Source: an uncultured Gemmiger sp. (lineage in GTDB: Bacteria > Bacillota > Clostridia > Oscillospirales > Ruminococcaceae). Taken from it: DNA of 54,676 bases. The DNA lies in contig CALXIA010000010.1 in assembly GCA_944388245.1 (NCBI GenBank), positions 1 to 54,676 of the forward strand. The letters are read 5' to 3'. A program made the translations under genes and the position numbers. Under the pieces are notes generated by a model that saw nothing but the letters and a program-made list of their open reading frames with translations, ran no database searches and had not been told where the DNA came from. Below, in pieces: positions 25,599 through 41,413 of the stretch (positions within the stretch are counted from its first letter, which is position 1; every line of letters starts with the position of its first letter).

Positions 25599-27401
25599 AT
25601 GGTACAATCCATTCCCGCTCGGGACCAGCTGGACCCGAAGCACACCTGGAATCTGACCGATCTTTTCCCCAGCGACGAGGCCTGGCAGGCCGAGTTCACC
25701 CGGCTTCGGGAATCGCTCAAACAGCTGGCGGGGTATAAGGGCCGGCTGGGCGAGAGCGCCCGCACCCTGCTGGAGTTTCTTCGGATGCAGGACCAGCTGG
25801 ACGTGGACGGCGACCGGCTGCTGTCCTACGCCTTCCGCAAGACCGACCAGGACACCCGGGAGGCCGTCTATCAGGAGATGAGCGCCCAGGCCCGCAACTT
25901 TGTGGTGGAATGGGAGCAGGCGCTGGCCTTCGTCACCCCGGAGGTGCTGGCCATCGAGGAGGACCGTCTGGCCGCCTTCTATCAGGACCAGCCCGATCTG
26001 GAACACTACCGGCTGCTGCTGACCCGCATCCGCCGCAAGAAGGAGCACACCCTCTCGGCCGAGGGGGAGAACCTGCTGGCCGCCGCCGGCAGCATGGGCC
26101 AGGCCCCGGGCGGCATCTTCGCGCTGCTGAACAACGCCGACATGACCTTTGCGGACGCGGCGGACAGCCAGGGCGAATCCCATCTCGTGACCCACGGCAG
26201 CTACATTCCTCTGATGGAATCCCCCGACCGCGCCCTTCGGGAGTCCGCTTTCCGTTCTCTGTACGCCGGGTACGGCAAGCTGAAGAACACCTGCTCCGCG
26301 GTGCTCAGCGCCCAGATGAAGCAGCTGCAGTTCTTTGCCGACGCCCGCCGCTATCCCTCGGCGCTGCACGCGGCCCTGGCGGGCACCGAGGTGCCGGTGG
26401 AGATCTACTACAACCTGATCGACACGGTACACGAGCATCTGCCCACCCTGCACCGGTACGTGCGGCTGCGCAAGAAGCTGCTGGGGCTGGACGAGCTGCA
26501 CTACTACGATCTGTACGCCCCCATGGTGGCCGACGTGCAGATGGAGGTGCCCTTTGAGCAGGGCAAGGAGATGGCCCGCGCCGCGCTGGCCCCGCTGGGC
26601 GAGGACTATCTGCGGATGCTGAACGAGGGCTTTGCCAACCGCTGGATCGACGCGTACGAGAACCAGGGCAAGCGCTCCGGCGCCTATTCCTCCGGGGTGT
26701 ACGGCGTGCATCCCTACGTGCTGCTCAACTACACCGACACCCTCAGCGACGCCTTCACCCTGGTGCATGAGATGGGCCACGCGCTGCACTCCTATCTGTC
26801 CAACACCCACCAGAGCCCCACCTACGCCAGCTACAAGATCTTTGTGGCGGAGGTGGCCTCCACCTGCAACGAGGCGCTGCTGATCCACCATCTGCTGGAC
26901 GGCACCCAGGAGCCCCGCCGCCGCGCCTACCTGATCAACCACTTCCTGGAGCGGTTCCGGGCCACCCTCTACCGGCAGACCATGTTTGCCGAGTTTGAGC
27001 TGTGGTGCAGCGAACAGATCCATCAGGGCCGGGCCCTGACCGCCGAGGGGCTGTGCGCCAAATACGGCGAGCTGAACCGGCTGTACTACGGGGAGGAGAT
27101 CGTGGCCGATCCCGAGATCGCGCTGGAGTGGGCCCGCATCCCCCACTTCTATTACAATTTCTATGTCTACCAGTACGCCACCGGTTTTGCCTCGGCGGTG
27201 GCGCTGTCCCGCCGCATCCTGCGGGAGGGCAAGCCGGCGGTGGACGACTACCTGCGGTTCTTGTCCGGCGGCTGCTCCGCCGACCCGGTCACCCTGCTCA
27301 AGGGCGCCGGCGTGGACCTGTCCACCCCCGCCCCCATCGTGGACGCGCTGCGGTATTTTGACAGCCTGATCGGGGAAATGGAATCGCTCATGTCCTTGTA
27401 A
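25599..27401 (+). CDS. pepF: Oligoendopeptidase F (M3 metallopeptidase)
   Basis: Cytoplasmic zinc endopeptidase that trims imported peptides. 600 residues, standard for PepF. The zinc site is HEMGH (H390-H394) with the third ligand in the AEVAST segment near residue 417; the family's C-terminal YNFYVYQYATGFASA is also seen. The ATG at 25599-25601 has AAAAAGGAG eight bases upstream. The frame is open far upstream, but that part is antisense to the flavodiiron gene and not coding. The gene lies just before the oligopeptide ABC operon, which fits peptide use. Confidence 0.95.
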   Translation: MVQSIPARDQLDPKHTWNLTDLFPSDEAWQAEFTRLRESLKQLAGYKGRLGESARTLLEFLRMQDQLDVDGDRLLSYAFRKTDQDTREAVYQEMSAQARNFVVEWEQALAFVTPEVLAIEEDRLAAFYQDQPDLEHYRLLLTRIRRKKEHTLSAEGENLLAAAGSMGQAPGGIFALLNNADMTFADAADSQGESHLVTHGSYIPLMESPDRALRESAFRSLYAGYGKLKNTCSAVLSAQMKQLQFFADARRYPSALHAALAGTEVPVEIYYNLIDTVHEHLPTLHRYVRLRKKLLGLDELHYYDLYAPMVADVQMEVPFEQGKEMARAALAPLGEDYLRMLNEGFANRWIDAYENQGKRSGAYSSGVYGVHPYVLLNYTDTLSDAFTLVHEMGHALHSYLSNTHQSPTYASYKIFVAEVASTCNEALLIHHLLDGTQEPRRRAYLINHFLERFRATLYRQTMFAEFELWCSEQIHQGRALTAEGLCAKYGELNRLYYGEEIVADPEIALEWARIPHFYYNFYVYQYATGFASAVALSRRILREGKPAVDDYLRFLSGGCSADPVTLLKGAGVDLSTPAPIVDALRYFDSLIGEMESLMSL

Positions 27402-27652: not shown

Positions 27653-29554
27653 ATGAAAAAGACAAAACTCATGTCCTTGTTGCTGGCGGGCGTAATGGCC
27701 GCTTCCCTGGCTGCCTGCGGCAGTCAGGCGCCCGTCACCAACAACGCGGGCAGCGCCGGCTCCCAGACGGGGAGCAGCGCCTCGACAGCCGCCGAGAGCA
27801 CTCGGCCGACCGAGCCGCAGGGCCAGCTGGTCATTGGCAGCACTACCCAGATGGGCAATGACTTCTATGACCCCAGCTTCTCCAACAACGCGGTCAACTA
27901 CAAGATCTACGACCTGCTGCACGGCTATGGCACCGTTGTCTCTGACATCGACGGCAACTACGTATACGATCCCACCGTCGTGGCCAGCCACACCGAGACC
28001 GAGAACGAGGATGGCACCAAGACCTACACCGTGACCATCAACGACGATCTGGTTTGGAGCGACGGCACCCCCATCACCGCCAAGGACTACGTCTTCCAGC
28101 TGCTGCTGGAGAGCAGCCCCGAGATGAACGGCGTGGACGGCTATCCCAGCCAGGCCGGCTATTCTCTGGTGGGCTACGATGAGTTCTTCAGCGGCGCCAC
28201 CAAGAACTTTGCCGGTGTGCACCTGGTGGACGACATGACCTACTCGGTCACCGTCCGTGCCGAGGAACTGCCTTACCACTACGACATCACCTACGCCTCC
28301 GCTATGCCCCGTCCGATGCATGTGATCGCCCCGGGCTGCGACGTGGTGGATGCTCCGGAAGGCGCCACCATCACCGGTGAGTTCACCACCGATCTGCTGC
28401 TGGAGACCATCAACAACACCACCACCGGCTACCGCTACGTGCCGAAGGTCACCTGCGGGCCCTACCTGTTCGATTCCTTCGACGTGGCCAGCGCCCAGTG
28501 CACCCTGACCGTCAACCCCACCTATGTGGGCGACTACCGCGGTGTGAAGCCGGTCATCGAGAAGCTGATCATCAAGATGGTCAAGACCGACACCATGATC
28601 AACGAGCTGAAGTCCGGTTCCGTTGACCTGCTGTTCCAGTGCAGCGGCGCCGACACCATCAACGCCGGTCTGGATCTGGTGGACGCCGGCGAGGCCCAGG
28701 ACAACACCTTCTTCCGTAACGGTTACGGCAAGGTGCAGTTCGACTGCAGCCAGTTCCCCACCGACTCCGCGAATGTCCGTAAGGCCATTGCCTACTGCCT
28801 GGACCGCAACGAGTTTGCCCGTCAGTACAGCGGCGGCTACGCGGCGGTCGTGCACTCCTACTACGGCCTGGCCCAGTGGGAGTACCAGGAGTCCAAGGAC
28901 TGGATCGACCAGAACCTGAACAACTACGAGCGCAACCTGGACGAGGCCAAGGCTCTGCTGGAGGCTGACGGCTGGACCCTGAACGCCGACGGCACCGAGT
29001 ACTCCGGCACCGGCCTGCGTTACAAGGACGTGAACGGCGAGCTGAAGCCGCTGGTCATCGAGTGGGCCAACACCGACGGCAACCCCGTTTCCGACCTGCT
29101 GGCCACCATGCTGCCCGAGGCTATGGAAGAGGTGGGCATGCAGCTGAACGCCACCACCATGGACTTCCCCACCCTGCAGGCTGCGATCACCCATACCGGT
29201 GACAAGATCTACAATATGTACAACCTGGCCGTGGGCTTTGCGCTGGCCAGCAGCCCCTGGTACTACTACTCCACCGATCCTGTCTGGATGCAGGGCGGTT
29301 ACAACAGCAACTGGATTGCTGACGAGGAGCTGGCTGCTTCCGCCGAGGCCCTGAAGACCATCCCCTTCGACGACAAGGACACCTGGCTGACCGCCTGGCA
29401 GAACTTCATCGCCGTTTGGAATGACAAGCTGCCCGACATCCCCCTGTACTCCGATGAGTACTACGACTTCTTCTCCAACAAGCTGCACGGCTGGTACTCC
29501 ACCTCCGTTTGGGAGTGGTCCCGTGCCGTTCTGGATGCCTGGGTTGACGCCTAA
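27653..29554 (+). CDS. oppA: Oligopeptide ABC transporter substrate-binding lipoprotein
   Basis: 633 residues of the family 5 solute-binding proteins, somewhat longer than the usual 530-560. The signal MKKTKLMSLLLAGVMA ends in a lipobox LAAC, so it is membrane-anchored; a Ser/Gly/Thr linker follows. Family features: DDLVWSDGTPITAKDYVFQ, VTVRAEELPYHYD and VRKAIAYCLDRNEF. The ATG at 27653-27655 follows GAAAGGAAAG; upstream codons would precede the signal peptide. The code is richer in favoured codons than its neighbours, as expected for an abundant protein. Ligand is inferred to be peptides from operon make-up. Confidence 0.92.
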   Translation: MKKTKLMSLLLAGVMAASLAACGSQAPVTNNAGSAGSQTGSSASTAAESTRPTEPQGQLVIGSTTQMGNDFYDPSFSNNAVNYKIYDLLHGYGTVVSDIDGNYVYDPTVVASHTETENEDGTKTYTVTINDDLVWSDGTPITAKDYVFQLLLESSPEMNGVDGYPSQAGYSLVGYDEFFSGATKNFAGVHLVDDMTYSVTVRAEELPYHYDITYASAMPRPMHVIAPGCDVVDAPEGATITGEFTTDLLLETINNTTTGYRYVPKVTCGPYLFDSFDVASAQCTLTVNPTYVGDYRGVKPVIEKLIIKMVKTDTMINELKSGSVDLLFQCSGADTINAGLDLVDAGEAQDNTFFRNGYGKVQFDCSQFPTDSANVRKAIAYCLDRNEFARQYSGGYAAVVHSYYGLAQWEYQESKDWIDQNLNNYERNLDEAKALLEADGWTLNADGTEYSGTGLRYKDVNGELKPLVIEWANTDGNPVSDLLATMLPEAMEEVGMQLNATTMDFPTLQAAITHTGDKIYNMYNLAVGFALASSPWYYYSTDPVWMQGGYNSNWIADEELAASAEALKTIPFDDKDTWLTAWQNFIAVWNDKLPDIPLYSDEYYDFFSNKLHGWYSTSVWEWSRAVLDAWVDA

Positions 29555-29714: not shown

Positions 29715-30707
29715 ATGGGAAAAGGCAGATACCTGCTGAAGCGATTGATCTATATCGTCTTCGTCTTTTTTATCATTTCCATCCTGATGTTCTGGATCTA
29801 TAAATCCATGCCCGGCGATCCTGTCGATATCATGCTGGGCAGCAGCAAAACCACCATGAAACCCGACGCCTATCAGCTTCTCTACGAAAAGACCCGGGCG
29901 TCTCTGGGGCTGGATAAGCCTCTGCCGATCCAGTATTTTGCCTGGATGGGCAATATGCTCACCGGCCATTTCGGCTACTCCACCCAGTACAAGCAGGAGG
30001 TCGTCAACGTCATCGGCGCGCCCATGTTCAACACAGTGCTGCTGAACCTGCTGACCATGTTCGTGGTGTTCGTGATCTCCATTCCCCTGGGCATTGCCAC
30101 AGCAGTGCGCAAGAACGGCGCCTTTGACAAGAGCGTTCAGGTGCTGACCATCGTGGGCTACAGTATACCCACCTTTATCATAGCTTTGCTGGCGATCTTC
30201 CTGCTGGCGGTCAAGTTCCCGATCTTCCCCATCAGCGGCGTGCGGACCGCCGGCTCCACAGCTACCGGCCTGGCAGCCATAGGGGACATGCTATGGCACA
30301 TGGCATTGCCGGTGCTGGTCATGTCCATTTCGGGCATCGGCGGCATCACCCGCTATGTGCGCGCCGCCATGATCGACGTACTGCGCATGGACTACATCAA
30401 GACCGCCCGGGCCAAGGGTCTGCGGGAAAAGACGGTCATCTACGTACACGCGTTCCGCAACGCGCTGATCCCGGTGGTCACCGTTACCACCTGGTGGGTC
30501 GTGGGCCTGTTCGGCGGCTCGATCGTTATCGAGTCGGTGTTCCTGTGGCCCGGCCTCGGCAAGATGCTGATCGACGGCCTGCTGCAGCGTGACTTTGCCG
30601 TGGTTCTGACCATGCAGATGTTCTACGTGGTGCTGTCCCTGGCCGGCAATGTGATCATGGATATCGCCTACACGATGGTAGACCCCCGTGTGCGGCTGGA
30701 CGGCTAA
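29715..30707 (+). CDS. oppB: Oligopeptide ABC transporter permease OppB
   Basis: 330 residues with six membrane helices. The N-terminus MGKGRYLLKRLIYIVFVFFI and the following SMPGDPVD are typical of OppB/DppB. The docking loop is YIKTARAKGLREKTVIYVH, followed by RNALIPVVT. The ATG at 29715-29717 is preceded by GGAGGAACGG; the longer open frame reads through the attenuator and is rejected. Twelve bases separate it from the OppC gene. Confidence 0.93.
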   Translation: MGKGRYLLKRLIYIVFVFFIISILMFWIYKSMPGDPVDIMLGSSKTTMKPDAYQLLYEKTRASLGLDKPLPIQYFAWMGNMLTGHFGYSTQYKQEVVNVIGAPMFNTVLLNLLTMFVVFVISIPLGIATAVRKNGAFDKSVQVLTIVGYSIPTFIIALLAIFLLAVKFPIFPISGVRTAGSTATGLAAIGDMLWHMALPVLVMSISGIGGITRYVRAAMIDVLRMDYIKTARAKGLREKTVIYVHAFRNALIPVVTVTTWWVVGLFGGSIVIESVFLWPGLGKMLIDGLLQRDFAVVLTMQMFYVVLSLAGNVIMDIAYTMVDPRVRLDG

Positions 30708-30719
30708 GGAGGAACGAGG

Positions 30720-32528
30720 ATGCTGAACAACAAAAAGAGAAAGCGCTCCACAGCAGCCATAGCCGCCCAGCGCATGGCTCTGGGCGGGCTTCCCCAGCAG
30801 GAAGAGGAAGAGGTTCTGCAGAGCCCGCTTCAGATGGTGGTCGGATCCTTCGTGCGGGACAAGATCGCCATGACCGGCGTGATCCTGTTCTCCTTTATTT
30901 TCCTGTGCTGCATTTTTCTGCCCATTTTCTTCCCTATTGACCTGTATTACCAGGACGTGACCCAGGCCAACGTGGCGTCCGGATTCGGCATGCTCAGCGT
31001 GCCTTCCCAGCTGCAGGGCAACGTCCAGGATATCACGGTGGGCAGCTCCTTCTCGGTGGGGCTGGACAAGAACGGCAACGTGTATGAATGGGGCACCTTC
31101 CCCAACAACAAGCTCAAAAACATCCCCAGCACCAGCGAGACCGGCAAACTGGTCCAGGTCTCGGCCGGTCTGGACCATGTGGTCGCCGTCAATGAGGACG
31201 GCCAGATCTTCACCTGGGGCAACGACCGGATGGGCCTGGCCACCATTCCCATGGAGCTGCGCAGCGGCGGCAACAACATCAAGCAGATCCTGGCCGGCTA
31301 CCAGATCTCGCTGGCGCTCACCGAAGAGGGCCGGATGTACAACTGGGGCAGCGACTATCTGCTGAGCATCACCTACCCCGAAGGGGTCCAGGGCAACATC
31401 GAAAAGTTTGCCGCCAGCACCAACATCGTCATGGTGCTGACCAAGGACGGCGAGGTGGTGCCCCTCACCAACAAGCCCTCCGCCTACACCAACATCCCGG
31501 AGGAGATCCAGGGCAATGTGGTGGACCTGGCGCTGACCGATGAGTGCGCCGCGGCGGTCACCGCCGACGGCCGGGTCTATACCTGGGGCAACAACATCAA
31601 AAAGGGCCTGAACGTGCCCGAGGACATCCAGGGCCAGGTGGTCGCGGTCTCCGGCGGCCGGTATCATTTCACCGCCGTGCTGAAGGACGGCACCATGCGC
31701 GGCTGGGGCGACAACACCCACGGCCAGGCCAGCGCCCCCTCCGGCGTGACTGTCTCCTCGGTGGAGAGCGGCTACTACGCCAACTACGCCATTACCCAGG
31801 ACGGTTCTGTGACCTCCTGGGGCCTGAAGGGCTACCTGATGGGCACCGACGATCTGGGCCGCGATCTGTTCCGCCGTATGCTGGTGGGCGGCCGCATGAC
31901 CATGACCGTGGGCGCCATCGCCGTTGTGATCTCCACCATTATCGGTATCGTGGTCGGCGGTATCTCCGGCTACAAGGGCGGCAAGGTGGATAACCTGCTG
32001 ATGCGCCTGACCGAGATCGTTTCCTCTATTCCTTTCCTTCCTTTCTGTATTATCCTGTCCTCGATCCTGGGCAACTCGATCAGCGAGACCCAGCGTATCA
32101 TTCTGATCATGTGCATCCTGGGCCTGCTTTCCTGGCCCGGCATCGCCCGTCTGGTGCGCGGCAGCGTGCTGGCCGAGCGTGAGCAGGAGTTCGTCACCGC
32201 CGCCAAGGCGCTGGGCGTGAAGGAGTTCGGCATCATCTTCCGCCACATCCTGCCCAACATCATCACGGTCATCATCGTGAACGCGACCCTCAACTTCGCC
32301 ACCTGCATGCTGACCGAGTCTTCCCTGTCCTTCATCGGCTTCGGCGTTACCGAGCCCAATGCCACCTGGGGCAACATGCTCACCGGCGCGCAGAACGGCC
32401 AGGTCATCGAGAACTACTGGTGGCGGTGGGTGTTCCCGGCTTTGATGCTGGGCATCTGCACCATCAGCATCAACTGCATTGGCGACGGCCTGCGCGACGC
32501 CATCGACCCCAAATCGAAGGAGAGGTGA
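30720..32528 (+). CDS. oppC: OppC-type permease with an inserted RCC1-like seven-repeat propeller
   Basis: 602 residues, twice the length of a normal OppC. Residues 1-45 are cytoplasmic; helix 1 (about 48-72, GVILFSFIFLCCIFLPIFF) is followed by a block of about 275 residues (98-372) of seven RCC1/BLIP-II-like repeats, each with a DG turn and mostly WG: YEWG, FTWGN, YNWGS, a degenerate fourth, YTWGN, RGWGD, TSWG. The permease then resumes exactly at the conserved GTDDLGRDLFRRMLVGGR, with five more helices and the docking loop VTAAKALGVKEFGIIFRHILPN. By OppC topology the propeller lies outside the membrane. Reading frame and codon use are continuous. The permease is sure; the propeller's role (lid, peptide or OppA contact, wall binding) is unknown. 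Confidence 0.92.
   Translation: MLNNKKRKRSTAAIAAQRMALGGLPQQEEEEVLQSPLQMVVGSFVRDKIAMTGVILFSFIFLCCIFLPIFFPIDLYYQDVTQANVASGFGMLSVPSQLQGNVQDITVGSSFSVGLDKNGNVYEWGTFPNNKLKNIPSTSETGKLVQVSAGLDHVVAVNEDGQIFTWGNDRMGLATIPMELRSGGNNIKQILAGYQISLALTEEGRMYNWGSDYLLSITYPEGVQGNIEKFAASTNIVMVLTKDGEVVPLTNKPSAYTNIPEEIQGNVVDLALTDECAAAVTADGRVYTWGNNIKKGLNVPEDIQGQVVAVSGGRYHFTAVLKDGTMRGWGDNTHGQASAPSGVTVSSVESGYYANYAITQDGSVTSWGLKGYLMGTDDLGRDLFRRMLVGGRMTMTVGAIAVVISTIIGIVVGGISGYKGGKVDNLLMRLTEIVSSIPFLPFCIILSSILGNSISETQRIILIMCILGLLSWPGIARLVRGSVLAEREQEFVTAAKALGVKEFGIIFRHILPNIITVIIVNATLNFATCMLTESSLSFIGFGVTEPNATWGNMLTGAQNGQVIENYWWRWVFPALMLGICTISINCIGDGLRDAIDPKSKER
31011..31838 (+). repeat. Seven RCC1-like coding repeats inside oppC
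   Basis: Tandem units of about 38-47 codons, each opening with a GN-hydrophobic strand (QGNVQDITVG, GKLVQVSAG, GNNIKQILAG, QGNIEKFAA, QGNVVDLAL, QGQVVAVSGG, TVSSVESG), then an x-DG-x turn and the WG motif. The fourth lacks WG. Protein identity between units is low at DNA level, so this is an old domain, not a recent DNA duplication. Confidence 0.85.
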
Positions 32529-32535
32529 GAAACGT

Positions 32536-33531
32536 ATGAGTCTGTTGGAAGTCAAGAATCTGCACACCTATTTCACCACCAAAAAGGGTATCGTCAAGGC
32601 GGTCAACGACGTGAGCTATACCCTGGAGGCCGGCAAGACCCTGGGCATCGTGGGCGAGTCCGGCTCGGGCAAGAGCGTTTCCGCCATGAGCATCATCAAG
32701 CTGCTGGACGGCAACGGCTATATCGACAGCGGCGAGATCCTGTTTGACGGGCGCAACATTCTGCAGGCCAGCCTCAAGGATCTGCACCACATCCGCGGCA
32801 ACGAGATCTCGGTGATCTTCCAGGAGCCGATGACCTCCCTGAACCCGGTGTTCACGGTGGAGCGCCAGATCGGTGAGGTGCTGCAGCTGCACCAGCACAT
32901 GAACAAAAAGGACGCCCGCGCCAAAGCGGTCTCGCTGCTGGCGGACGTAAAGATCCCCAACCCGGAGCGGGTGGCCAAACAGTACCCGTTCCAGCTGTCC
33001 GGCGGTATGCGCCAGCGGGTCATGATCGCCATGGCCCTGGCCTGCAAGCCCAAGCTGCTGATCGCGGACGAGCCCACCACCGCCCTGGACGTGACCATCC
33101 AGGCCCAGATCCTGAAGCTGATGAACGAGCTGAAGGCCCAGACCGGCACCTCCATCCTCTTCATCACCCACGACCTGGGGGTCATCCACGAGATGGCGGA
33201 CGAGGTGGCCGTCATGTACTGCGGCCAGATCGTGGAAAAGGCCGACGCCAAGACCATCTTCCACGACGGCACCTACTCCCACCCCTACACCGAGGGCTTG
33301 ATGATCTCGATCCCCCGGCTGAACACCCCCAAGGACAAGCGGCTGGAAGCCATTCCGGGCGCGGTTCCCAACCCGCTGTATCTGCCGGTGGGCTGCAAGT
33401 TCGGCCCCCGCTGCAAGTACTGCACCGAAAAGTGCAAGGCCAGCGAACCCCCGCTCCAGGAGGTGGCCCCGGGCCACTTCATCCGGTGCTTCTATCCCGA
33501 AAAGGCGGTGAGAAACAAACATGGAGAATGA
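32536..33531 (+). CDS. oppD: Oligopeptide ABC transporter ATPase OppD
   Basis: 331 residues. Walker A GESGSGKS, Q loop IFQEPMTSLNPV, signature LSGGMRQR, Walker B LLIADEPTTALD and switch ITHDLGV are all present. The C-terminal oligopeptide/dipeptide domain carries the iron-sulfur-type cysteine cluster CKFGPRCKYCTEKC. The ATG at 32536-32538 follows AAGGAGAGGTGAG, which overlaps the end of oppC. It overlaps oppF by 11 bases. Confidence 0.94.
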   Translation: MSLLEVKNLHTYFTTKKGIVKAVNDVSYTLEAGKTLGIVGESGSGKSVSAMSIIKLLDGNGYIDSGEILFDGRNILQASLKDLHHIRGNEISVIFQEPMTSLNPVFTVERQIGEVLQLHQHMNKKDARAKAVSLLADVKIPNPERVAKQYPFQLSGGMRQRVMIAMALACKPKLLIADEPTTALDVTIQAQILKLMNELKAQTGTSILFITHDLGVIHEMADEVAVMYCGQIVEKADAKTIFHDGTYSHPYTEGLMISIPRLNTPKDKRLEAIPGAVPNPLYLPVGCKFGPRCKYCTEKCKASEPPLQEVAPGHFIRCFYPEKAVRNKHGE

Positions 33532-34531
33532 GAATCGCAAAGTACTGCTGACCATTCGGGATCTGAAGCAGTATTTCCCCGTGAAAAAGACCAAGCTGCG
33601 GGAAAAGCAGCGGTATGTGCGCGCCAACGACGGCATCTCGCTGGACATCTACGCCGGCGAGACGCTGGGGCTGGTGGGCGAATCCGGCTGCGGCAAGTCC
33701 ACCCTGGGACGTACCCTGCTGCAGCTCTATCCCCAGACCGAGGGCCAGGTCATCTACCACAAGGGCGATCAGGACATTGACCTGAAGAGCCTGCCCAAAG
33801 AGGAGATGCGGGTGCTGCGCAAGGACCTGCAGCTGATCTTCCAGGATCCCTATTCCTCGCTGAACCCCCGCATGACGGTGGGCCAGATCATCGGGGAGGG
33901 CCTGGTGTCCCACGGCGTGTTCAAGCGCGGCGACCCGGCCATGCGGGACTATATCTTCAAGGTCATGGAGAACTGCGGGCTGGACACCTACATGTTCGGC
34001 CGGTATCCCCATCAGTTCTCCGGCGGCCAGCGCCAGCGTATCGGCATCGCCCGCAGCCTGGCGCTGAACCCGGCCTTTGTGGTCTGCGACGAGGCGGTGT
34101 CCGCGCTGGACGTGTCCATCCAGTCCCAGATTTTGAACCTGCTGTCCGATCTGAAGGAAAAGCAGAACCTGACCTACCTGTTCATCACCCACGATCTGAG
34201 CGTGGTGAAATACATCAGCGACCGGATCGGCGTGATGTATCTGGGCAACATGGTGGAGCTGGCCTCCACCGAGGAGCTGTTCGCCAACACGCTGCACCCC
34301 TACACCGAGGCGCTGCTGTCGGCCATCCCGGTGGTGGACGAGAACGACAAGCGGGAGCGCATCCTGCTGGAGGGCGATATCCCCAGCCCGGTGAATCCCC
34401 CCTCCGGCTGCAAGTTCCACACCCGCTGCCGTTACTGCCAGCAGAAGTGCAAAGAGGTGGTCCCGGAGTGGACCGACGTGGGCAACAACCATTATGTGGC
34501 CTGCCACTTCCCGCTGCAGCACAAAGGGTGA
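33521..34531 (+). CDS. oppF: Oligopeptide ABC transporter ATPase OppF
   Basis: 336 residues. Walker A GESGCGKST, IFQDPYSSLNPR, signature FSGGQRQR, Walker B FVVCDEAVSALD (DEAVSALD is the usual OppF variant) and ITHDLSV. The C-terminal cysteine cluster is CKFHTRCRYCQQKC. It starts inside oppD with ribosome site AAGGCGGTGAG. With OppD it forms the heterodimeric motor of the importer. Confidence 0.94.
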   Translation: MENENRKVLLTIRDLKQYFPVKKTKLREKQRYVRANDGISLDIYAGETLGLVGESGCGKSTLGRTLLQLYPQTEGQVIYHKGDQDIDLKSLPKEEMRVLRKDLQLIFQDPYSSLNPRMTVGQIIGEGLVSHGVFKRGDPAMRDYIFKVMENCGLDTYMFGRYPHQFSGGQRQRIGIARSLALNPAFVVCDEAVSALDVSIQSQILNLLSDLKEKQNLTYLFITHDLSVVKYISDRIGVMYLGNMVELASTEELFANTLHPYTEALLSAIPVVDENDKRERILLEGDIPSPVNPPSGCKFHTRCRYCQQKCKEVVPEWTDVGNNHYVACHFPLQHKG

Positions 34532-35140: not shown

Positions 35141-35623
35141 ATGCGGAGTGAGCAAGCGGTAAACAGAGCGATCGAGCAGTACGCGGACACGGTGAAACGG
35201 GTCTGCGTACTGCACCTGAAAAACGACGCGGACACCGAAGACATCTTTCAGACGGTATTTTTGAAGTACGCGTTGAGCTCCACCGCGTTTGAAAACGAGG
35301 AGCACGAAAAAGCCTGGCTGATCCGTGTGACCATCAACGCCTGCAAAGACCTGCTCAAAAGCTTCTTCCGCAGCCGCATGGTCTCCCTGGAAGACGTGCG
35401 GGAGCGGGCGGCCGTACCACAGACCTCCAGCGAGGTGCTGGAGACCGTGCTGCGACTGCCGGAAAAGTACCGGCAGGTCGTGTATCTTCCCTACTACGAA
35501 GGCTACACCGCGCCGGAGATCGGGCGGATCCTGGGCAAGAACGTGAACAGCGTCTACACCCTGATCACCCGGGCCCGGCAGATGCTCAAGCAAGCGTTGG
35601 GAGGTGAAGAGTTTGCCACATGA
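35141..35623 (+). CDS. ECF RNA polymerase sigma factor
   Basis: 160 residues, sigma-70 regions 2 and 4 only. Region 2: DADTEDIFQTVFLKYA and HEKAWLIRVTINACKDLLKS. Region 4: RLPEKYRQVVYLPYYEGYTAPEIGRIL, which ends in the -35-recognising helix (GKNVNSVYTLITRARQML). The ATG at 35141-35143 has GGCGGGGAG upstream. It overlaps the anti-sigma gene at its 3' end, the usual arrangement for a sigma/anti-sigma pair. Confidence 0.94.
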   Translation: MRSEQAVNRAIEQYADTVKRVCVLHLKNDADTEDIFQTVFLKYALSSTAFENEEHEKAWLIRVTINACKDLLKSFFRSRMVSLEDVRERAAVPQTSSEVLETVLRLPEKYRQVVYLPYYEGYTAPEIGRILGKNVNSVYTLITRARQMLKQALGGEEFAT

Positions 35624-36386
35624 ATGGAAAGAGGCGCTGGACCAGATCCACGCCGACGAAGCGCTGAAACAGCGCACCCGCCAGTTTGTGCAGCAGAACA
35701 TGGCCCGGCAACGTCGCCCGCCCGCGATGCGTGTGGTACGGCGAACCCTGTATGCCGCCTGCGCCTGTTTGGCCGTGTGCCTGCTGGCGGCCGGATATTA
35801 TCTGTATTTCACCCCCACCTCCATCATCAGCGTGGATATCAACCCTTCGCTGGAGTTGAGCGTCAACCGTTTTGACCGCGTGATCGATGTGACCGGCTAC
35901 AACGAGGATGGCGAGCAGCTGGCCGGAACGCTGGATCTGCTGTACCAGGACTTTACCCAGGCCGTCACCCAGCTGCTGGACAGCGAAACGGTGCAGACCT
36001 GCCTGGCCCGGGATGAATTTCTCTCCATCGCGGTGGTGGAGATCGATCCCCAGCAGGGCCAGACGATCCTGCAATATGTGTCCTCCTGCACCGCGCAGCA
36101 CCGAAACGCCTACTGCTACAGCCTGGCCCCGGAAGAGGCGGAACACGCCCATGAAACGGGACTGTCCTACGGCAAGTACAAGGCCTACCAGGAAATTCTG
36201 GCCTACACCGACGCCTACACCCCCGAACAGATCAACGCCATGACCATGCGTCAGATCCGGGAACTGCTCTACAGCCTGCAGACCGGGCAAGAGCCGTCTG
36301 CCGTCACGCCTTCCGCGGGCGGCGGTTACGGCCACGGCGGCGAACACGGAAACGGAAACGGGTACGGGCGGCACAACGCGGAATAA
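35613..36386 (+). CDS. RsgI-like membrane anti-sigma factor
   Basis: 257 residues from a TTG at 35613-35615, which has GGGAGGTGAAG upstream; a GTG three codons earlier is possible but sits on that site. Order: short cytoplasmic domain (PHEWKEALDQIHADEALKQR) to hold the sigma factor, one membrane helix (about 46-66, TLYAACACLAVCLLAAGYYL), then an outside domain opening with SIISVDINPSLELSVNRFDRV, the hallmark of RsgI periplasmic domains. The tail is Gly/His-rich. In cellulolytic clostridia RsgI proteins sense polysaccharide; no carbohydrate-binding module is present here, so the signal is unknown. Confidence 0.88.
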   Translation: MPHEWKEALDQIHADEALKQRTRQFVQQNMARQRRPPAMRVVRRTLYAACACLAVCLLAAGYYLYFTPTSIISVDINPSLELSVNRFDRVIDVTGYNEDGEQLAGTLDLLYQDFTQAVTQLLDSETVQTCLARDEFLSIAVVEIDPQQGQTILQYVSSCTAQHRNAYCYSLAPEEAEHAHETGLSYGKYKAYQEILAYTDAYTPEQINAMTMRQIRELLYSLQTGQEPSAVTPSAGGGYGHGGEHGNGNGYGRHNAE

Positions 36387-36448: not shown

Positions 36449-36910
36449 TTATTCCTCTTTTTTTGAGCGGCTGGGCAAAGGGATCTCGGGCATCAGTTCA
36501 TCCGCGATCACCTGCAGCATCTGCTCGATCTTCTGCTCGTCCTCGGGGCTGAAGCGGGCCTTGATCCGCTCCATCACGGTGGACAGGTAGGAATAGCTGA
36601 TGTTGTAGTAGTCCAGATACTTTTGGGTGGGTTCCAGGTGGTATTCCCGCCGATCGTTCGGGGACTGGACCTTGCGCAGATACCCTTTCTGAATCAGGCT
36701 GTTCACCTTATAGGCCGCGTTGGGCGGCGAGATCTGCACAAAACTGGCAAATTCATTGACGGTGGGATTCTCCAGCGCCTGAATGATCTCCATACAGAAA
36801 CTCTCCACCGTGGTCAGGCTGGCCTCCCGGTCCTGGAAGCGCTCAAACACCTTCCGGTAGAAATGCAGCTTAAATTTTGTGTACACCCGGGCAAACGCTT
36901 CGTCCAGCAT
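36449..36910 (-). CDS. MarR-family regulator of the fatty-acid operon (FabT-like)
   Basis: 153 residues, the length of FabT. The winged helix is seen: NEFASFVQISPPNAAYKVNS (recognition helix), IQKGYLRKV, then the wing SPNDRREYHLEPT. ATG at 36908-36910 with GAAAGGATG upstream; codons further upstream overlap its promoter and are rejected. It is the last gene of the fatty-acid cluster with its own promoter. FabT proteins repress fab genes with acyl-ACP as co-repressor; the two AT palindromes by the acpP promoter (47118-47145) are the likely sites. FabT identity is inferred from context and length. Confidence 0.85.
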   Translation of the reverse strand: MLDEAFARVYTKFKLHFYRKVFERFQDREASLTTVESFCMEIIQALENPTVNEFASFVQISPPNAAYKVNSLIQKGYLRKVQSPNDRREYHLEPTQKYLDYYNISYSYLSTVMERIKARFSPEDEQKIEQMLQVIADELMPEIPLPSRSKKEE

Positions 36911-36946
36911 GGAAACGACATCCTTTCCGAAACACCGTTTTCCTTT

Positions 36947-36975
36947 ATTATACCTGTCCCGGGCGCACAAATCAA
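36947..36975 (-). promoter_or_regulatory. Sigma-A promoter of the MarR gene, within the end of fabZ
   Basis: On the minus strand: TTGATT (36970-36975), 17 bases, TATAAT (36947-36952). It allows the regulator to be made independently of the operon. Confidence 0.82.
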
Positions 36976-37397
36976 CGGACGGCAAAGGTCAGTTCGGCGG
37001 TAGCCGCCAGCTGCCCGTCCACCCGGGCCACCGCCTTGCCCATCCCCACCGGGCCGCGCCGGGCGGTGAGGACGCACTCCATCTCCAGCACATCGCCGGG
37101 GGTGACCGGCCGCTTGAACCGGGCGCTCTTTACCCCGCCAAACAGCACGATCTTGCCCTTGTTTGCCTCCTCGGTGAGCAGCGCCACCGCCCCCACCTGG
37201 GCCATGGCCTCCAGAATCAGCACCCCCGGCATCACGTGCAGCTGGGGAAAATGGCCGCAGAAAAAGGGCTCGCCCACCGACACGCACTTGCGGCCCTCGG
37301 CCCGCACGCCCGGCTCACAGGCGGTGATGCGGTCCACCAGCTGGAAAGGAAACCGGTGGGGCAGCACCTTCATGATCTCGTTGGAATCCAGGGTCAT
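36972..37397 (-). CDS. fabZ: (3R)-hydroxyacyl-ACP dehydratase FabZ
   Basis: 141 residues. Dehydrates 3-hydroxyacyl-ACP. The N-terminal IMKVLPHRFPFQLVDR and the active-site stretch GHFPQLHVMPGVLILEAMAQ (catalytic His and Glu) are typical hot-dog-fold FabZ. The ATG at 37395-37397 overlaps the fabF stop (ATGA), preceded by GGAGGAAG. Confidence 0.95.
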   Translation of the reverse strand: MTLDSNEIMKVLPHRFPFQLVDRITACEPGVRAEGRKCVSVGEPFFCGHFPQLHVMPGVLILEAMAQVGAVALLTEEANKGKIVLFGGVKSARFKRPVTPGDVLEMECVLTARRGPVGMGKAVARVDGQLAATAELTFAVR

Positions 37398-38641
37398 TTT
37401 TCTTCCTCCCATCGTTTCAGCAGGATGCTGGCGTTGTGCCCGCCAAATCCCAGCGAGTTGGACATGGCGTACTCCACCCGGACCTCGCGGCCGGCGTTGG
37501 GCACCACGTCCAGATCGCAGGCCGGATCGGGCTGTTCATAGTGGATGGTGGCGGGCAGGAAGCCGTCCCGCAGCGCCATCGCTGTAAAGGCCGCCTCCAC
37601 CGCCCCGGCGGCCCCCAGCAGATGGCCGGTCATGGACTTGGTGGAACTGATCGCCAGCCGGTAGGCCTGTTCGCCAAAAGCCAGCTTGACGGCGGCGGTC
37701 TCCCCCGCGTCGTTCAGCGGGGTGGAGGTGCCGTGGGCGTTGATATACCCCACCTGTTCCGGCGCTATGCCCCCGTCGGCCAGCGCCAGGGTCATGGCCC
37801 GGGCCGCGCCGGAGCCGTCCGGCAGGGGGGCGGTGATGTGGTGGGCGTCACAGGAAGCGCCATATCCCGCCACCTCTGCCAGGATCGGCGCGCCCCGGCG
37901 CACCGCGTGTTCGTATTCCTCCAGCAGCAGCGCGCCCGCACCCTCCCCCATCACAAAACCGGACCGGCGCGCGTCAAAGGGCACCGAAGCGCAGGCAGGG
38001 TCCGCGCCGGTATACAGCGCGTGCAGCGAGGTGAAGCCGCCCATGGCCAGCGAGGTGATGGCCGCTTCGGTTCCACCGGCCAGGGCCACCTCCGCATAGC
38101 CGTCCCGGATGTGGCGGAAGGCGTCCCCCACCGCGTTGGTGCCGGAGGCGCAGGCGGTCACCGGGCAGGTGCACATTCCCTGGAATCCCAGCCGGATGGC
38201 CACATTGCCCGCCGCCATATTGGCGATGACCATGGGGATGAAGAAGGGCGAGACCCGGTCGTATCCCTTTTCTTCCCCTTTCCGGCACTCGGCCTGCAGG
38301 GTGGCGAAACCGCCGATCCCGCTGGCAAAGAACACCGCGCAGCGCCCGGCGTCCTCCGCCTCCATCCGCAGCCCGGCCGCCGCCACCGCCTGATCGGCGG
38401 CCGCCAGCGCGAACTGCACGCACCGGTCCAGTTTGCGGACCTCCTTTTTGTCCAGAAAGGCGGTGGCGTCAAAGCCCTTGACCTCCGCCGCCAGGCCCAC
38501 CTTCTGCCCGGCGGGGTCGTAGAGGGTGATGGGCCCGATGCCGCACTCCCCCCGTTTGACCGCCGCCCAGCTGTCCGCCAGGTTCAGCCCCAGCGGGGTC
38601 ACCGCGCCCATGCCGGTGATCACTACCCGTCGTTTTTCCAT
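37394..38641 (-). CDS. fabF: 3-oxoacyl-ACP synthase II FabF
   Basis: 415 residues. Elongating condensing enzyme. Cys-His-His triad: TACASGTNA (C164), NAHGTSTPLND and KSMTGHLLGAAGA; N-terminal VVITGMGAVTPLG. The ATG at 38639-38641 has AGGAGGGCAAG upstream. It lies 13 bases after fabG and is coupled to fabZ. Confidence 0.96.
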   Translation of the reverse strand: MEKRRVVITGMGAVTPLGLNLADSWAAVKRGECGIGPITLYDPAGQKVGLAAEVKGFDATAFLDKKEVRKLDRCVQFALAAADQAVAAAGLRMEAEDAGRCAVFFASGIGGFATLQAECRKGEEKGYDRVSPFFIPMVIANMAAGNVAIRLGFQGMCTCPVTACASGTNAVGDAFRHIRDGYAEVALAGGTEAAITSLAMGGFTSLHALYTGADPACASVPFDARRSGFVMGEGAGALLLEEYEHAVRRGAPILAEVAGYGASCDAHHITAPLPDGSGAARAMTLALADGGIAPEQVGYINAHGTSTPLNDAGETAAVKLAFGEQAYRLAISSTKSMTGHLLGAAGAVEAAFTAMALRDGFLPATIHYEQPDPACDLDVVPNAGREVRVEYAMSNSLGFGGHNASILLKRWEEEK

Positions 38642-38654
38642 CTTGCCCTCCTGT

Positions 38655-39401
38655 TCACATGGCCATGCCGCCGTCCACACAGAGCACCTGGCCGGTGATG
38701 TAAGCCGCCTGGGGCGAGGCGAGGAACGCCACCGCCGCGGCCACCTCCTCCGCCGCGCCCAGCCGGCCCAGCGGGATCTGCCCCAGCAGGTCGGCGCGCA
38801 CCGATTCCGGCAGCGCGGCGGTCATATCTGTCTCGATAAAGCCCGGCGCCACGCAGTTCACCGTGATCCCCCGGCCCGCCAGTTCCCGGGCGGCGCTCTT
38901 GGTCAAGCCGATCAGCCCCGCCTTGCTGGCGGCGTAGTTGGCCTGGCCCACATTGCCCCGCAGCCCCACCACGCTGGACAGATTCACGATCCGCCCCCAG
39001 CGCTGTTTCATCATGGGCCGGGCCACCGCCTGCATACAGCTAAACGCCCCTTTCAGGTTGGTGGCCAGCACCGCGTCAAAATCCGATTCCCGCATCCGCA
39101 GCAGCAGCCCGTCCCGGGTGATGCCCGCGTTGTTCACCAGCACGTCCACGCCGCCCAGCCGTTCGCTCACCGCGTCCACCAGCGCCCGGACCTGCTGCGG
39201 GTCGGCTATATCCGCCTGGACCGCGAAGGCCTCCGGCGCGCCCCGGCGCTTGCACTCCTCTGCCACCTGCTCGGCGGCGTCCCGGCTGCCCGCGTAGTTC
39301 ACCGCCACCGACAAGCCCTGCTCCGCCAGCGCCAGGCAGACCGCCCGGCCGATGCCCCGGCTGCCGCCGGTGACCAGCGCCCGTTTTGCCGTCTGTTCCA
39401 T
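38655..39401 (-). CDS. fabG: 3-oxoacyl-ACP reductase FabG
   Basis: 248-residue short-chain dehydrogenase, NADPH-dependent. [11 protein letters not shown] cofactor loop, NNAGIT, catalytic Ser in NLSSVVG, and YAASKAG with the Tyr and Lys. Its ATG directly abuts the fabD stop. The context inside the fab operon fixes the role. Confidence 0.95.
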
Positions 39402-40346
39402 TCAGTGTTCCTCCTGTATCCGCTCTACCGCGTCGGCCAGTTCCTGCGCGGTCTCCACGCAGAGCACCGGCACCTTGCGCTCGGTCACCGTCTTTTTCCA
39501 CAGCCCGGCCAGCACCCGGCCCGGGCCCACCTCGATCACCCGGTCCACCCCCTGGTCCGCCAGGCGGCGCAGGATGTCCTCCATGTACACGCCGGAACGC
39601 ACCTGCCGCTCCAGCAGCGCGGGGATGGTGTCCTCCGGGCCCATCGGCCCGCCCAGGCAGTTGAAGTAGACCGGGAACGCCATCGGGCCAAAGGTCTCCT
39701 GCTGGAACCGCTGCGCCAGCGCGGCGGCGGCGGGGGCCATCCGGGAGGTGTGGAACGGCCCGGAGACCTTCAGCGGCACACAGCGCCGCGCCCCCGCCTG
39801 TTTGGCCAGTTCGCAGGCCCGTTCCACCGCGGCGGCGTCCCCGGCAATGGCCATCTGGCCGGGGCAGTTGTAGTTGGCGATCTCCACCACCCCCAGCGCC
39901 GACGCGCCGGCGCACACATCCGCCAGGGTCTTGCGGTCCAGCCCCAGCACGGCGGCCATGCCGCCGGCGTGGCCCTGCACCGCCTGTTCCATCGCCGCGC
40001 CCCGGAAGGCCGCCAGTTCCACCGCCTGCCGGGGGGTGAACACCCCCGCGGCGCACAGGGCGGAGTATTCCCCCAGGCTCAGCCCCGCGGCGGCAAAGGG
40101 CCGCGCGCCCGCCTGCCGCAGCACTCCGGTCACACCGGCGGCAAAGGCCACCATACAGGGCTGGGTATAGCGAGTCTGGTTCAGCATCTCGTCCGGCCCC
40201 GCAAAACAAAGGGACTTCAGGTCAAAATCCACCCCGGCGGCGCAGTCGTCCAGCACCTGCCGGAAGACGGGGAACGCCTCGTACAGATCCGCCCCCATCC
40301 CGGCATGCTGGGCTCCCTGCCCCGCGAACAACAGCGCCAGTTTCAT
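39402..40346 (-). CDS. fabD: Malonyl-CoA:ACP transacylase FabD
   Basis: 314 residues. Loads malonyl groups onto ACP. FAGQGAQHAGMG at the N-terminus, nucleophile Ser in GLSLGEYSAL, and the His in GPFHTSRM. ATG at 40344-40346 with GGAGGGCG upstream; it overlaps the stop of the preceding gene (ATGA). Longer open codons upstream belong to that gene's span and are not used. Confidence 0.95.
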   Translation of the reverse strand: MKLALLFAGQGAQHAGMGADLYEAFPVFRQVLDDCAAGVDFDLKSLCFAGPDEMLNQTRYTQPCMVAFAAGVTGVLRQAGARPFAAAGLSLGEYSALCAAGVFTPRQAVELAAFRGAAMEQAVQGHAGGMAAVLGLDRKTLADVCAGASALGVVEIANYNCPGQMAIAGDAAAVERACELAKQAGARRCVPLKVSGPFHTSRMAPAAAALAQRFQQETFGPMAFPVYFNCLGGPMGPEDTIPALLERQVRSGVYMEDILRRLADQGVDRVIEVGPGRVLAGLWKKTVTERKVPVLCVETAQELADAVERIQEEH

Positions 40347-41413
40347 GCAAACGCCCTCCATTCGGTTTTCCAGTGTTTCATCAGCCAGGCCACGCTGTGC
40401 ATCCCCTCCAGGCGATGCACGCCGGCCCCGCAAAAGAACAGCCCGTTCTCATAGTCGCCCCGCACCGCCCGGATCAGCGCCCGCGCGATGCAATAGAGCG
40501 CCGTACTGCGGCCGCAGGGCCGCAGGCAATCCACGCAGCGGGAGGGAGCCAGCCGCAGCCCCTCCTCCAGACGGCGCACCAGCGGGGTGCGCAGCGCCCG
40601 GCCGGGCATCCCCACCGGGCTGTCCACCAGCGCCACATCCTGGGGCCGGGCCGCCAGCATCACGTCTTTATAGGCCTGGCTGGCGTCACATTCCGGGGTG
40701 GCGATAAACCGGGTGGCAAACTGCACCCCCGCCGCGCCGGCCGCCTCCATCCGGGCCGCGTCGGCGCCGGTCCACAAACCGCCCGCCGCGAACACCGGGA
40801 TCGCCCGGCCCCGCTGCCGACCAAAGGGCGCCAGCGCCTCCACCGTGCGGGCCACCAGTTCCGCCAGGGAGGGCGCGGTTCCCGCTCGCAGCGTCTGGCG
40901 GTCAAACCCCAGATGGCCGCCGGCCTCGCTGCCCTCCACCAGCACAAAATCCGGCAGACGGCCCCGCTTTTGCCAGGCCCGCGCGATCAGGCCGGCCGCC
41001 CGGGGGCCGGACACCACCGGGGCCAGCAGCACATCCGCGCCCTCCGCGATGGCGGGCAGTTCCAGCGGCAGCCCCGCCCCGGACACGATCGCGTCCACCC
41101 CCGCCTCGATCGCGGCGCGCACACTGTCCGCGTACTGGGTGGTGGCCACCATGGCGTTGACCGCCACCAGCCCGCTCTTGCCCGCGATCTCCCGGGCGCG
41201 GCGCACCTCCCGGCGCAGAGCGCGCAGGTTGGCCCCCTGCGGGTCCCGAGCAAAATCCGGCTCGTCGAAACCGGGCACGGCCGTACTCACCGTTCCCATG
41301 CCGCCGCAGGCGGCCACCGCGCCGGCCAGCCGGCCCAGCGAGACCCCGACCCCCATGCCGCCCTGCAGAATGGGCACCTCCAGCCAGCGCCGGCCCAGTT
41401 CGATGCCGTTCAT
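40343..41413 (-). CDS. FMN-dependent NPD/FabK-like oxidoreductase, second copy in the fab operon
   Basis: 356-residue TIM-barrel flavoprotein related to nitronate monooxygenase and FabK: PILQGGMGVGVSLGRLAGAV at the start, GSEAGGHLG with the family His, VFAAGGLWTGADAARM and the GVQFATRFI FMN-phosphate region. It differs from FabK in a C-terminal extension with cysteines (CVDCLRPCGRSTALYC, later LFFCGAGVHR). The ATG is coupled to the fabK stop (ATGA), and its own stop to the fabD start. It may be a second enoyl-ACP reductase with other chain specificity or a distinct oxidoreductase; the cysteines suggest a metal or cluster site. Confidence 0.82.
   Translation of the reverse strand: MNGIELGRRWLEVPILQGGMGVGVSLGRLAGAVAACGGMGTVSTAVPGFDEPDFARDPQGANLRALRREVRRAREIAGKSGLVAVNAMVATTQYADSVRAAIEAGVDAIVSGAGLPLELPAIAEGADVLLAPVVSGPRAAGLIARAWQKRGRLPDFVLVEGSEAGGHLGFDRQTLRAGTAPSLAELVARTVEALAPFGRQRGRAIPVFAAGGLWTGADAARMEAAGAAGVQFATRFIATPECDASQAYKDVMLAARPQDVALVDSPVGMPGRALRTPLVRRLEEGLRLAPSRCVDCLRPCGRSTALYCIARALIRAVRGDYENGLFFCGAGVHRLEGMHSVAWLMKHWKTEWRAFA

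Follow-up and report, generated by a model that had tools for sequence, protein, structure and literature searches.

The OppC-type permease encoded in the window, the whole stretch of 54,676 nucleotides that was analysed, carries a seven-repeat RCC1/BLIP-II-like propeller between its first membrane helix and its permease core. This OppC-propeller architecture is real and conserved, and it is a variant of a known importer. It is also apparently undescribed; neither a report of an RCC1-type propeller fused to OppC or to another ABC permease nor a function for such a fusion was found in the open-access literature searched, and the first-pass annotation of this DNA had likewise known of no described function for one.

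The OppC protein and its inserted propeller

The oppC gene (Table 1) is an uninterrupted frame of 602 codons. An antisense frame over the same DNA (30291-32567, 758 aa) was taken as spurious. The earlier assignment to the OppC-type permeases was confirmed by two Pfam domains above their cut-offs, OppC_N at residues 35-84 (36.4 bits against 23.9) and BPD_transp_1 at residues 409-599 (126.8 bits against 26.4); the Pfam scan of the frame found nothing beyond these two and the RCC1_2 domain. The top PDB match of the whole 602-residue protein was E. coli OppC. The solved OppC/DppC chains that were matched are only 287-302 residues long, in agreement with the figure of about 300 residues first given for ordinary members of the family, and a protein of 602 residues is therefore unusual. 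OppC-type permeases have six membrane helices, with the GTDxLGRD motif preceding TM2. Six hydrophobic stretches were detected in the window's OppC by a crude hydropathy scan, and comparison with ordinary OppC proteins indicated that the insert replaces a short piece ahead of the GTD motif. From hydropathy and topology the propeller should be extracellular, which agrees with the original placement of the insert in an outside loop. The GC3 values of insert (0.91) and core (0.88) are alike.

Table 1. Features of oppC and its operon in the window (residue numbers are those of OppC).
Feature	Position	Strand	Length	Basis
pepF, oligoendopeptidase F, directly upstream of oppA	25599..27401	+		TIGR00181, 641.5 bits (above cut-off 490.55); HEMGH metal site
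oppA, family 5 solute-binding lipoprotein	27653..29554	+		SBP_bac_5, 145 bits; lipobox by eye
oppB, permease of ordinary length	29718..30707	+	329 aa	BPD_transp_1, 134.6 bits; BPD_transp_1_N
oppC with inserted propeller	30720..32528	+	602 aa	
OppC TM1, hydrophobic residues 44-78	30849..30953	+		Hydropathy scan; OppC_N at 35-84
RCC1/BLIP-II-like propeller, seven repeats, residues 94-368	30999..31823	+		
Joint from the last-blade WG to GTDxLGRD	31824..31841	+	6 residues	
OppC permease core, residues 371-602	31830..32525	+		BPD_transp_1; query for core searches
GTDDLGRD, residues 375-382, start of permease core	31842..31865	+		Translation
oppD, ATPase	32536..33531	+		ABC_tran, oligo_HPY
oppF, ATPase of ordinary length	33521..34531	+	336 aa	ABC_tran, oligo_HPY

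The first-pass count of seven in-frame repeats between TM1 and GTDxLGRD stands. Seven 'P' anchors (residues 95, 136, 177, 220, 260, 300 and 340) alternate with seven 'WG' positions (124, 166, 209, 249, 289, 329 and 367), and the A-B-C elements lie at about 102-125, 144-167, 187-210, 227-250, 267-290, 307-330 and 345-368. The fourth repeat (about 227-250, with its WG position at 249) is degenerate, WG being replaced by LT while spacing and turn are kept. The RCC1_2 profile (PF13540) detected six of the seven individual repeats in the DNA and scored 137.9 bits on the insert (cut-off 22, E 5e-41) in six stretches; the RCC1 profile PF00415 (21.5 bits against 21.7) and the RCC1-like domain PF25390 (126.1 bits against 150) remained under their cut-offs. 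PF13540 was used because PF00415 gave no match anywhere in the window's own genome. In that genome, which is 75% complete, the oppC frame was the sole RCC1_2 match over the cut-off, and the two other OppC-core matches at E 1e-5, to frames 378 and 308 aa in length, lack the propeller.

By sequence, the best PDB match of the insert was BLIP-II (3qhy, 4.8e-34), with UVR8 and RCC1 behind it; these match scores, together with the conservation of the insert across species, place it far beyond chance. BLIP-II (1jtd, 3qhy), the closest solved sequence, shares repeats of approximately 40 residues with WGxNxxG and VP, and is a seven-bladed propeller according to the available parts of two reports (PMC10817188, PMC6121496). 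It is a free secreted inhibitor, whereas the OppC propeller is part of a membrane protein. The first propeller element is an outer element, VP (residues 94-98), and the last is WG; the chain enters by an outer element and exits by an A-B-C element, so that the first and last elements would together make up blade 7. From this repeat pattern we infer a closed seven-bladed ring, in which the chain would enter and exit at the C-D loop of blade 7 and not where it does in BLIP-II.

The opp operon and its neighbours

As first described, the operon is otherwise complete: oppABCDF stand in order, with oppA, oppB, oppD and oppF identified by Pfam, and pepF lies ahead of oppA. The closest PDB relatives of OppA are mostly peptide-binding proteins. 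The best-scoring NCBIfam models for OppC, OppB and OppA were Opp4C, Opp4B and Opp4A, all under their curated cut-offs; the whole OppC scored 320.8 bits with the Opp4C equivalog (NF045476), under 350. The gene set matches that of an Opp4-type importer, but the Opp4C model spans 278 positions and cannot accommodate the propeller.

OppA was found upstream in 44 of the 45 full-length propeller loci described below, the contig of the remaining one (L045) ending first. A further 26 loci gave an OppA match in 25 cases, that of L202 being in pieces, and the remaining locus lies at a contig end. A pepF homologue (at least 65%) is present in 22 of the 45 loci, once on the opposite strand, and in some of the remaining loci the upstream sequence does not extend far enough to reveal one.

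Behind oppF, positions 35141-36386 encode an ECF sigma factor and a further ORF, anti-sigma-like by eye; among L001-L046, some of which are short, both recur in L002 only. The minus strand at 36449-40433 carries a fatty-acid-synthesis-like cluster, read by eye as a MarR-type regulator, dehydratase, ketosynthase, reductase and acyltransferase. OppF itself varies among the propeller operons. The window's OppF has 45 residues between Walker A and FQDP, as in 40 of the 40 measured members of its subclade (L001-L037, L040, L047 and L049), and in distant operons (L038, L039, L042-L046, L048, L189-L203, L205-L209 and L211-L214) the spacing is 177-230 residues. The insert in these distant proteins comprises about 130-185 residues, charge-rich and coiled-coil-like by eye, and was perhaps lost or gained once.

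Distribution and single origin

A scan of GTDB genomes yielded 153 loci, the best 80 of which (L001-L080) were examined. Full-length OppC with the insert was present in 45 of these 80 (L001-L039 and L041-L046), and the propeller loci include the isolate or strain records An120, An200 and An723. L040 and L047-L049 are truncated at contig ends, RCC1 repeats are absent from the OppC proteins of L050-L053, and in L054-L080 the match is confined to the propeller part (L058 being the one checked by Pfam). The long match of L050 (Cytobacillus) was traced to a normal 317-aa OppC fused with its neighbour, and in L053 an ordinary OppC sits in an open frame that overlaps oppB. L052, a Planctomycetota record, is an OppC of 665 aa in which about 400 residues separate the OppC_N match from the core match.

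Samples of 391 genomes from the class and 398 from the phylum, with at most seven candidates scored per genome, gave a sharper picture of frequency. In the class sample 17 of the 391 genomes carry the propeller, the window's own included, and they are the 17 best listed core matches (at least 302 bits); the next listed match (253 bits) is an ordinary 308-aa frame. The 14 carriers among the 398 genomes of the phylum sample are again the 14 best listed core matches (at least 271 bits), followed by a 326-aa frame at 248 bits; the own genome and one other are common to the class sample, and one of the 14 is cut by a contig end. Among the matches listed in both samples, an OppC core of at least 270 bits always came with a propeller. 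These counts and the strict split in core score indicate a distribution that is patchy between species and, as far as seen, strict within the clade. Twenty-eight sampled genomes besides the own carry the propeller; one corresponds to L042 and 27 are new, their OppC proteins being less than 85% identical to the 45 full-length sequences of the GTDB scan. RCC1-type repeats were absent from 29 lower-scoring OppC proteins (L138-L150 and L163-L178) and from ten more (L179-L188).

The search for RCC1-bearing OppC relatives that had been proposed from the window led to one clade. In a tree of 89 OppC cores, all 61 propeller rows fall on one side of one branch (SH-aLRT 100), and one change suffices to explain the propeller, with no visible loss within the clade. 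The tree was built by a quick method with the insert left out; it is unrooted, has some long branches and omits 16 near-duplicates, L177 (motif not found) and the second gene copies L119 and L122-L137. A tight blade pattern missed blades and was kept out of the counts, and a looser pattern served for row grouping only. On this tree the propeller insertion has a single origin and marks an Opp lineage.

Eight of the propeller proteins come from Lachnospiraceae records (L018, L027-L032 and L036) and share 67-76% identity with the window's OppC. In the core tree L018 stands among Oscillospiraceae rows and the others beside them, reflecting either operon transfer or mis-binned MAGs.

Selection, joints and face conservation

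Compared with five close relatives, the propeller had a dN/dS of 0.12-0.22 and the OppC core one of 0.02-0.07; the propeller is under purifying selection. Its joints to the permease are of fixed length. GTD follows the last blade after six residues in all 74 propeller OppC sequences compared (73 of them distinct, near-copies being included), two of which have SG for WG, and this joint follows the pattern G-x-x-G-[YFH] with both glycines invariant. At the other joint, the stretch from the end of TM1 to the first outer element is 18 residues long in all 72 sequences measured. Parts inside the ring, unlike the joints, vary in length. L113 and L135, both from one genome, have a propeller broken up by a long Ser/Glu/Thr-rich acidic stretch between blades 2 and 3 (residues about 180-250), and the motif GTDGNGAD.

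In the propeller alignment, which omits L113 on account of its acidic stretch within the ring and the truncated L153, the face formed by the A-B and C-D loops was better conserved among close relatives, with a mean pairwise identity of 0.75 against 0.61 for the other face (p 0.016). The difference was not significant in the distant set (p 0.18), in all 72 sequences (p 0.077) or with a weighted score (p 0.10).

Rate coupling within the operon

Branch-wise rates of the operon proteins were compared on a fixed tree as partial rho. The first set comprised 37 operons (71 branches), cut from 44, with L041 and L045 skipped as incomplete; the second comprised 24 more distant operons, after L192, L210, L198, L202, L204 and L208 had been dropped as incomplete. 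Five operons are common to both (L038, L043, L044, L046, and L197, which is the L042 contig). The propeller was coupled to OppA with a partial rho of 0.37 (p 0.0015) in the first set and 0.41 (p 0.0048) in the second. Its coupling to the other proteins was 0.14 and 0.08 for OppB, 0.08 and 0.02 for its own core, 0.11 and 0.09 for OppD, and 0.14 in both sets for OppF. In both sets, OppA ranked first among the propeller's partners in 738 of the 1000 bootstraps.

The control pair OppD-OppF was recovered (0.55 and 0.69), and OppA was coupled to OppB at 0.20 and 0.34 and to the OppC core at 0.30 and 0.33. In E. coli Dpp, the available part of a structural account describes contacts between DppB and DppD and between DppC and DppF (PMC12136057). 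The rate method missed both of the corresponding pairs, OppB-OppD (-0.09 and 0.23) and OppC core-OppF (-0.23 and 0.06); coupling of the OppC core to OppD was 0.49 in the first set and 0.19 in the second. Inside the close clade alone the propeller-OppA coupling was weak (0.30, p 0.035; p 0.059 on a log scale), and on terminal branches, on a log scale, the propeller was coupled more strongly to OppF (0.44) than to OppA (0.35). The propeller-OppA coupling may only reflect the common extracellular exposure of the two. An analysis by OppA lobe, for which the lobe borders were guessed, assigned the coupling firmly to neither lobe.

Possible roles of the propeller

The propeller is quite possibly a rigid platform on which the lipoprotein OppA docks, an explanation that we prefer while holding it as somewhat short of probable. 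The clamp on OppA that the first-pass annotation had listed among several roles gains some support from the fixed joints, from the presence of OppA wherever it could be tested for and from the rate coupling in two operon sets. Under this explanation the propeller, rigidly joined within the TM1-TM2 outer loop of OppC, would act as the dock. With both joints at the C-D loop of blade 7, the A-B/C-D face would be turned towards the membrane side, and its A-B (GxxH) and C-D (WGxNxxG) loops would lie next to the mouth of the pore, at the point of contact between OppA and the loop of an ordinary OppC. In BLIP-II this is the face that grips beta-lactamase. OppA held at the pore mouth would be likelier, once loaded, to deliver its peptide to OppBC, and the propeller could, with an OppB scoop, help to seal the delivery chamber. 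The BLIP-II residues that contact beta-lactamase are given in one report (PMC10817188); with an offset of 40, those mapped by hand on the alignment of the insert with BLIP-II (G49, N50, N51, W53, Y73, N112, D131, W152, D206, Y208, F209, F230, E268 and W269) fall in A-B (GxxH) or C-D (WGxNxxG) loops.

Outer additions to importers of this kind have precedents. One is the pneumococcal AmiC, in which one half of the permease likewise has a large extra domain between TM1 and TM2; AmiC is an OppB-type subunit, in contrast to the OppC-type subunit that bears the propeller. The part of the report consulted gives AmiC two extra outer domains, ECD1/ECD2 (residues 31-278), that may clamp the binding protein, a role that comes from an AlphaFold model, and does not there call them a propeller (PMC11192437). 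In the same model the TM1-TM2 part of AmiD (residues 64-99), an OppC-type subunit, meets lobe 2 of the binding protein (PMC11192437). The window's propeller sits at the AmiD-equivalent site. Similarly, the scoop between TM1 and TM2 of E. coli DppB is described, in the part of the account available, as entering the DppA cleft and as a proposed seal of the chamber (PMC12136057). It too is an outer permease element meeting the binding protein, but it has about 30 residues there and is located on DppB, whereas the propeller is on OppC.

Substrate selection is an unlikely alternative role. A selector or funnel would bind peptides, or a peptide-bearing partner, and pass what it had bound on to OppA or into the pore. 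One face of a propeller is often a ligand-binding surface, the OppC propeller would sit at the pore mouth, and the nearby pepF in 22 of the 45 loci points to peptide feeding. Against this, OppA is kept in all testable loci, and the propeller is therefore no replacement for it.

An anchor whose outward face binds the cell wall, the matrix or a surface protein, and so fixes the importer, would suit a propeller that should be extracellular by topology, and large RCC1-repeat proteins of other kinds were found in the same class. It is nevertheless rather improbable. The flexible form of such a tether, another of the roles first listed, is disfavoured by the invariant joint lengths, which a loose tether would not need; moreover, the OppC frame holds no additional known Pfam domain, and among close relatives conservation is weaker in the outward-facing loops.

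Slightly less probable again is a lid or shield that would cover the bare pore mouth and keep out harmful peptides, proteases and phage-type attackers, or else an inhibitor resembling BLIP-II displayed on the cell. The suggestion draws on BLIP-II being the best PDB match of the insert, but that match is a short-repeat likeness common to UVR8 and RCC1, and the rate coupling follows OppA. Finally, an assembly artefact or a neutral decoration has virtually no chance of being correct and is taken as refuted: misassembly of oppC, which the first-pass annotation had named as grounds for discarding the fusion, is ruled out by 45 other full-length loci from other assemblies, isolates included, and by the 27 new genomes, and neutrality is opposed by the dN/dS of the propeller, by its occurrence in one clade without visible loss and by its constant place in the same operon.

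A broader form of the docking explanation is conceivable, with less confidence than the docking role itself: a BLIP-II-type propeller would serve these gut Firmicutes importers as a permanent rigid receptor that grips OppA with its membrane-facing side, and the OppC TM1-TM2 loop would be a recurrent slot in which unrelated repeat domains, the propeller here and a different one in the neighbouring clade described below, have been placed to the same end. Importers of this kind have been described as meeting their binding proteins by fairly short loops. If the explanation is true, there is a clade with a rigid protein-binding ring on one permease half, in which the docking step becomes directly testable, and it could explain the enlargement of this same outer loop in several Opp families.

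The slot does seem to be reused. OppC proteins of a neighbouring clostridial clade (L146, L150, L168 and L179-L188) have a different insert of about 140-330 residues in the same TM1-TM2 place, which by eye looks to consist of a different type of repeat; no Pfam match was obtained for the three inserts scanned (L146, L150 and L168), and in the core tree three OppC proteins with such inserts form a clade separate from the propeller rows. Five other OppC proteins (L143, L145 and L147-L149), of 472-474 aa, have an extra N-terminal part before OppC_N, and four hydrophobic stretches were found in that of L143, the one scanned.
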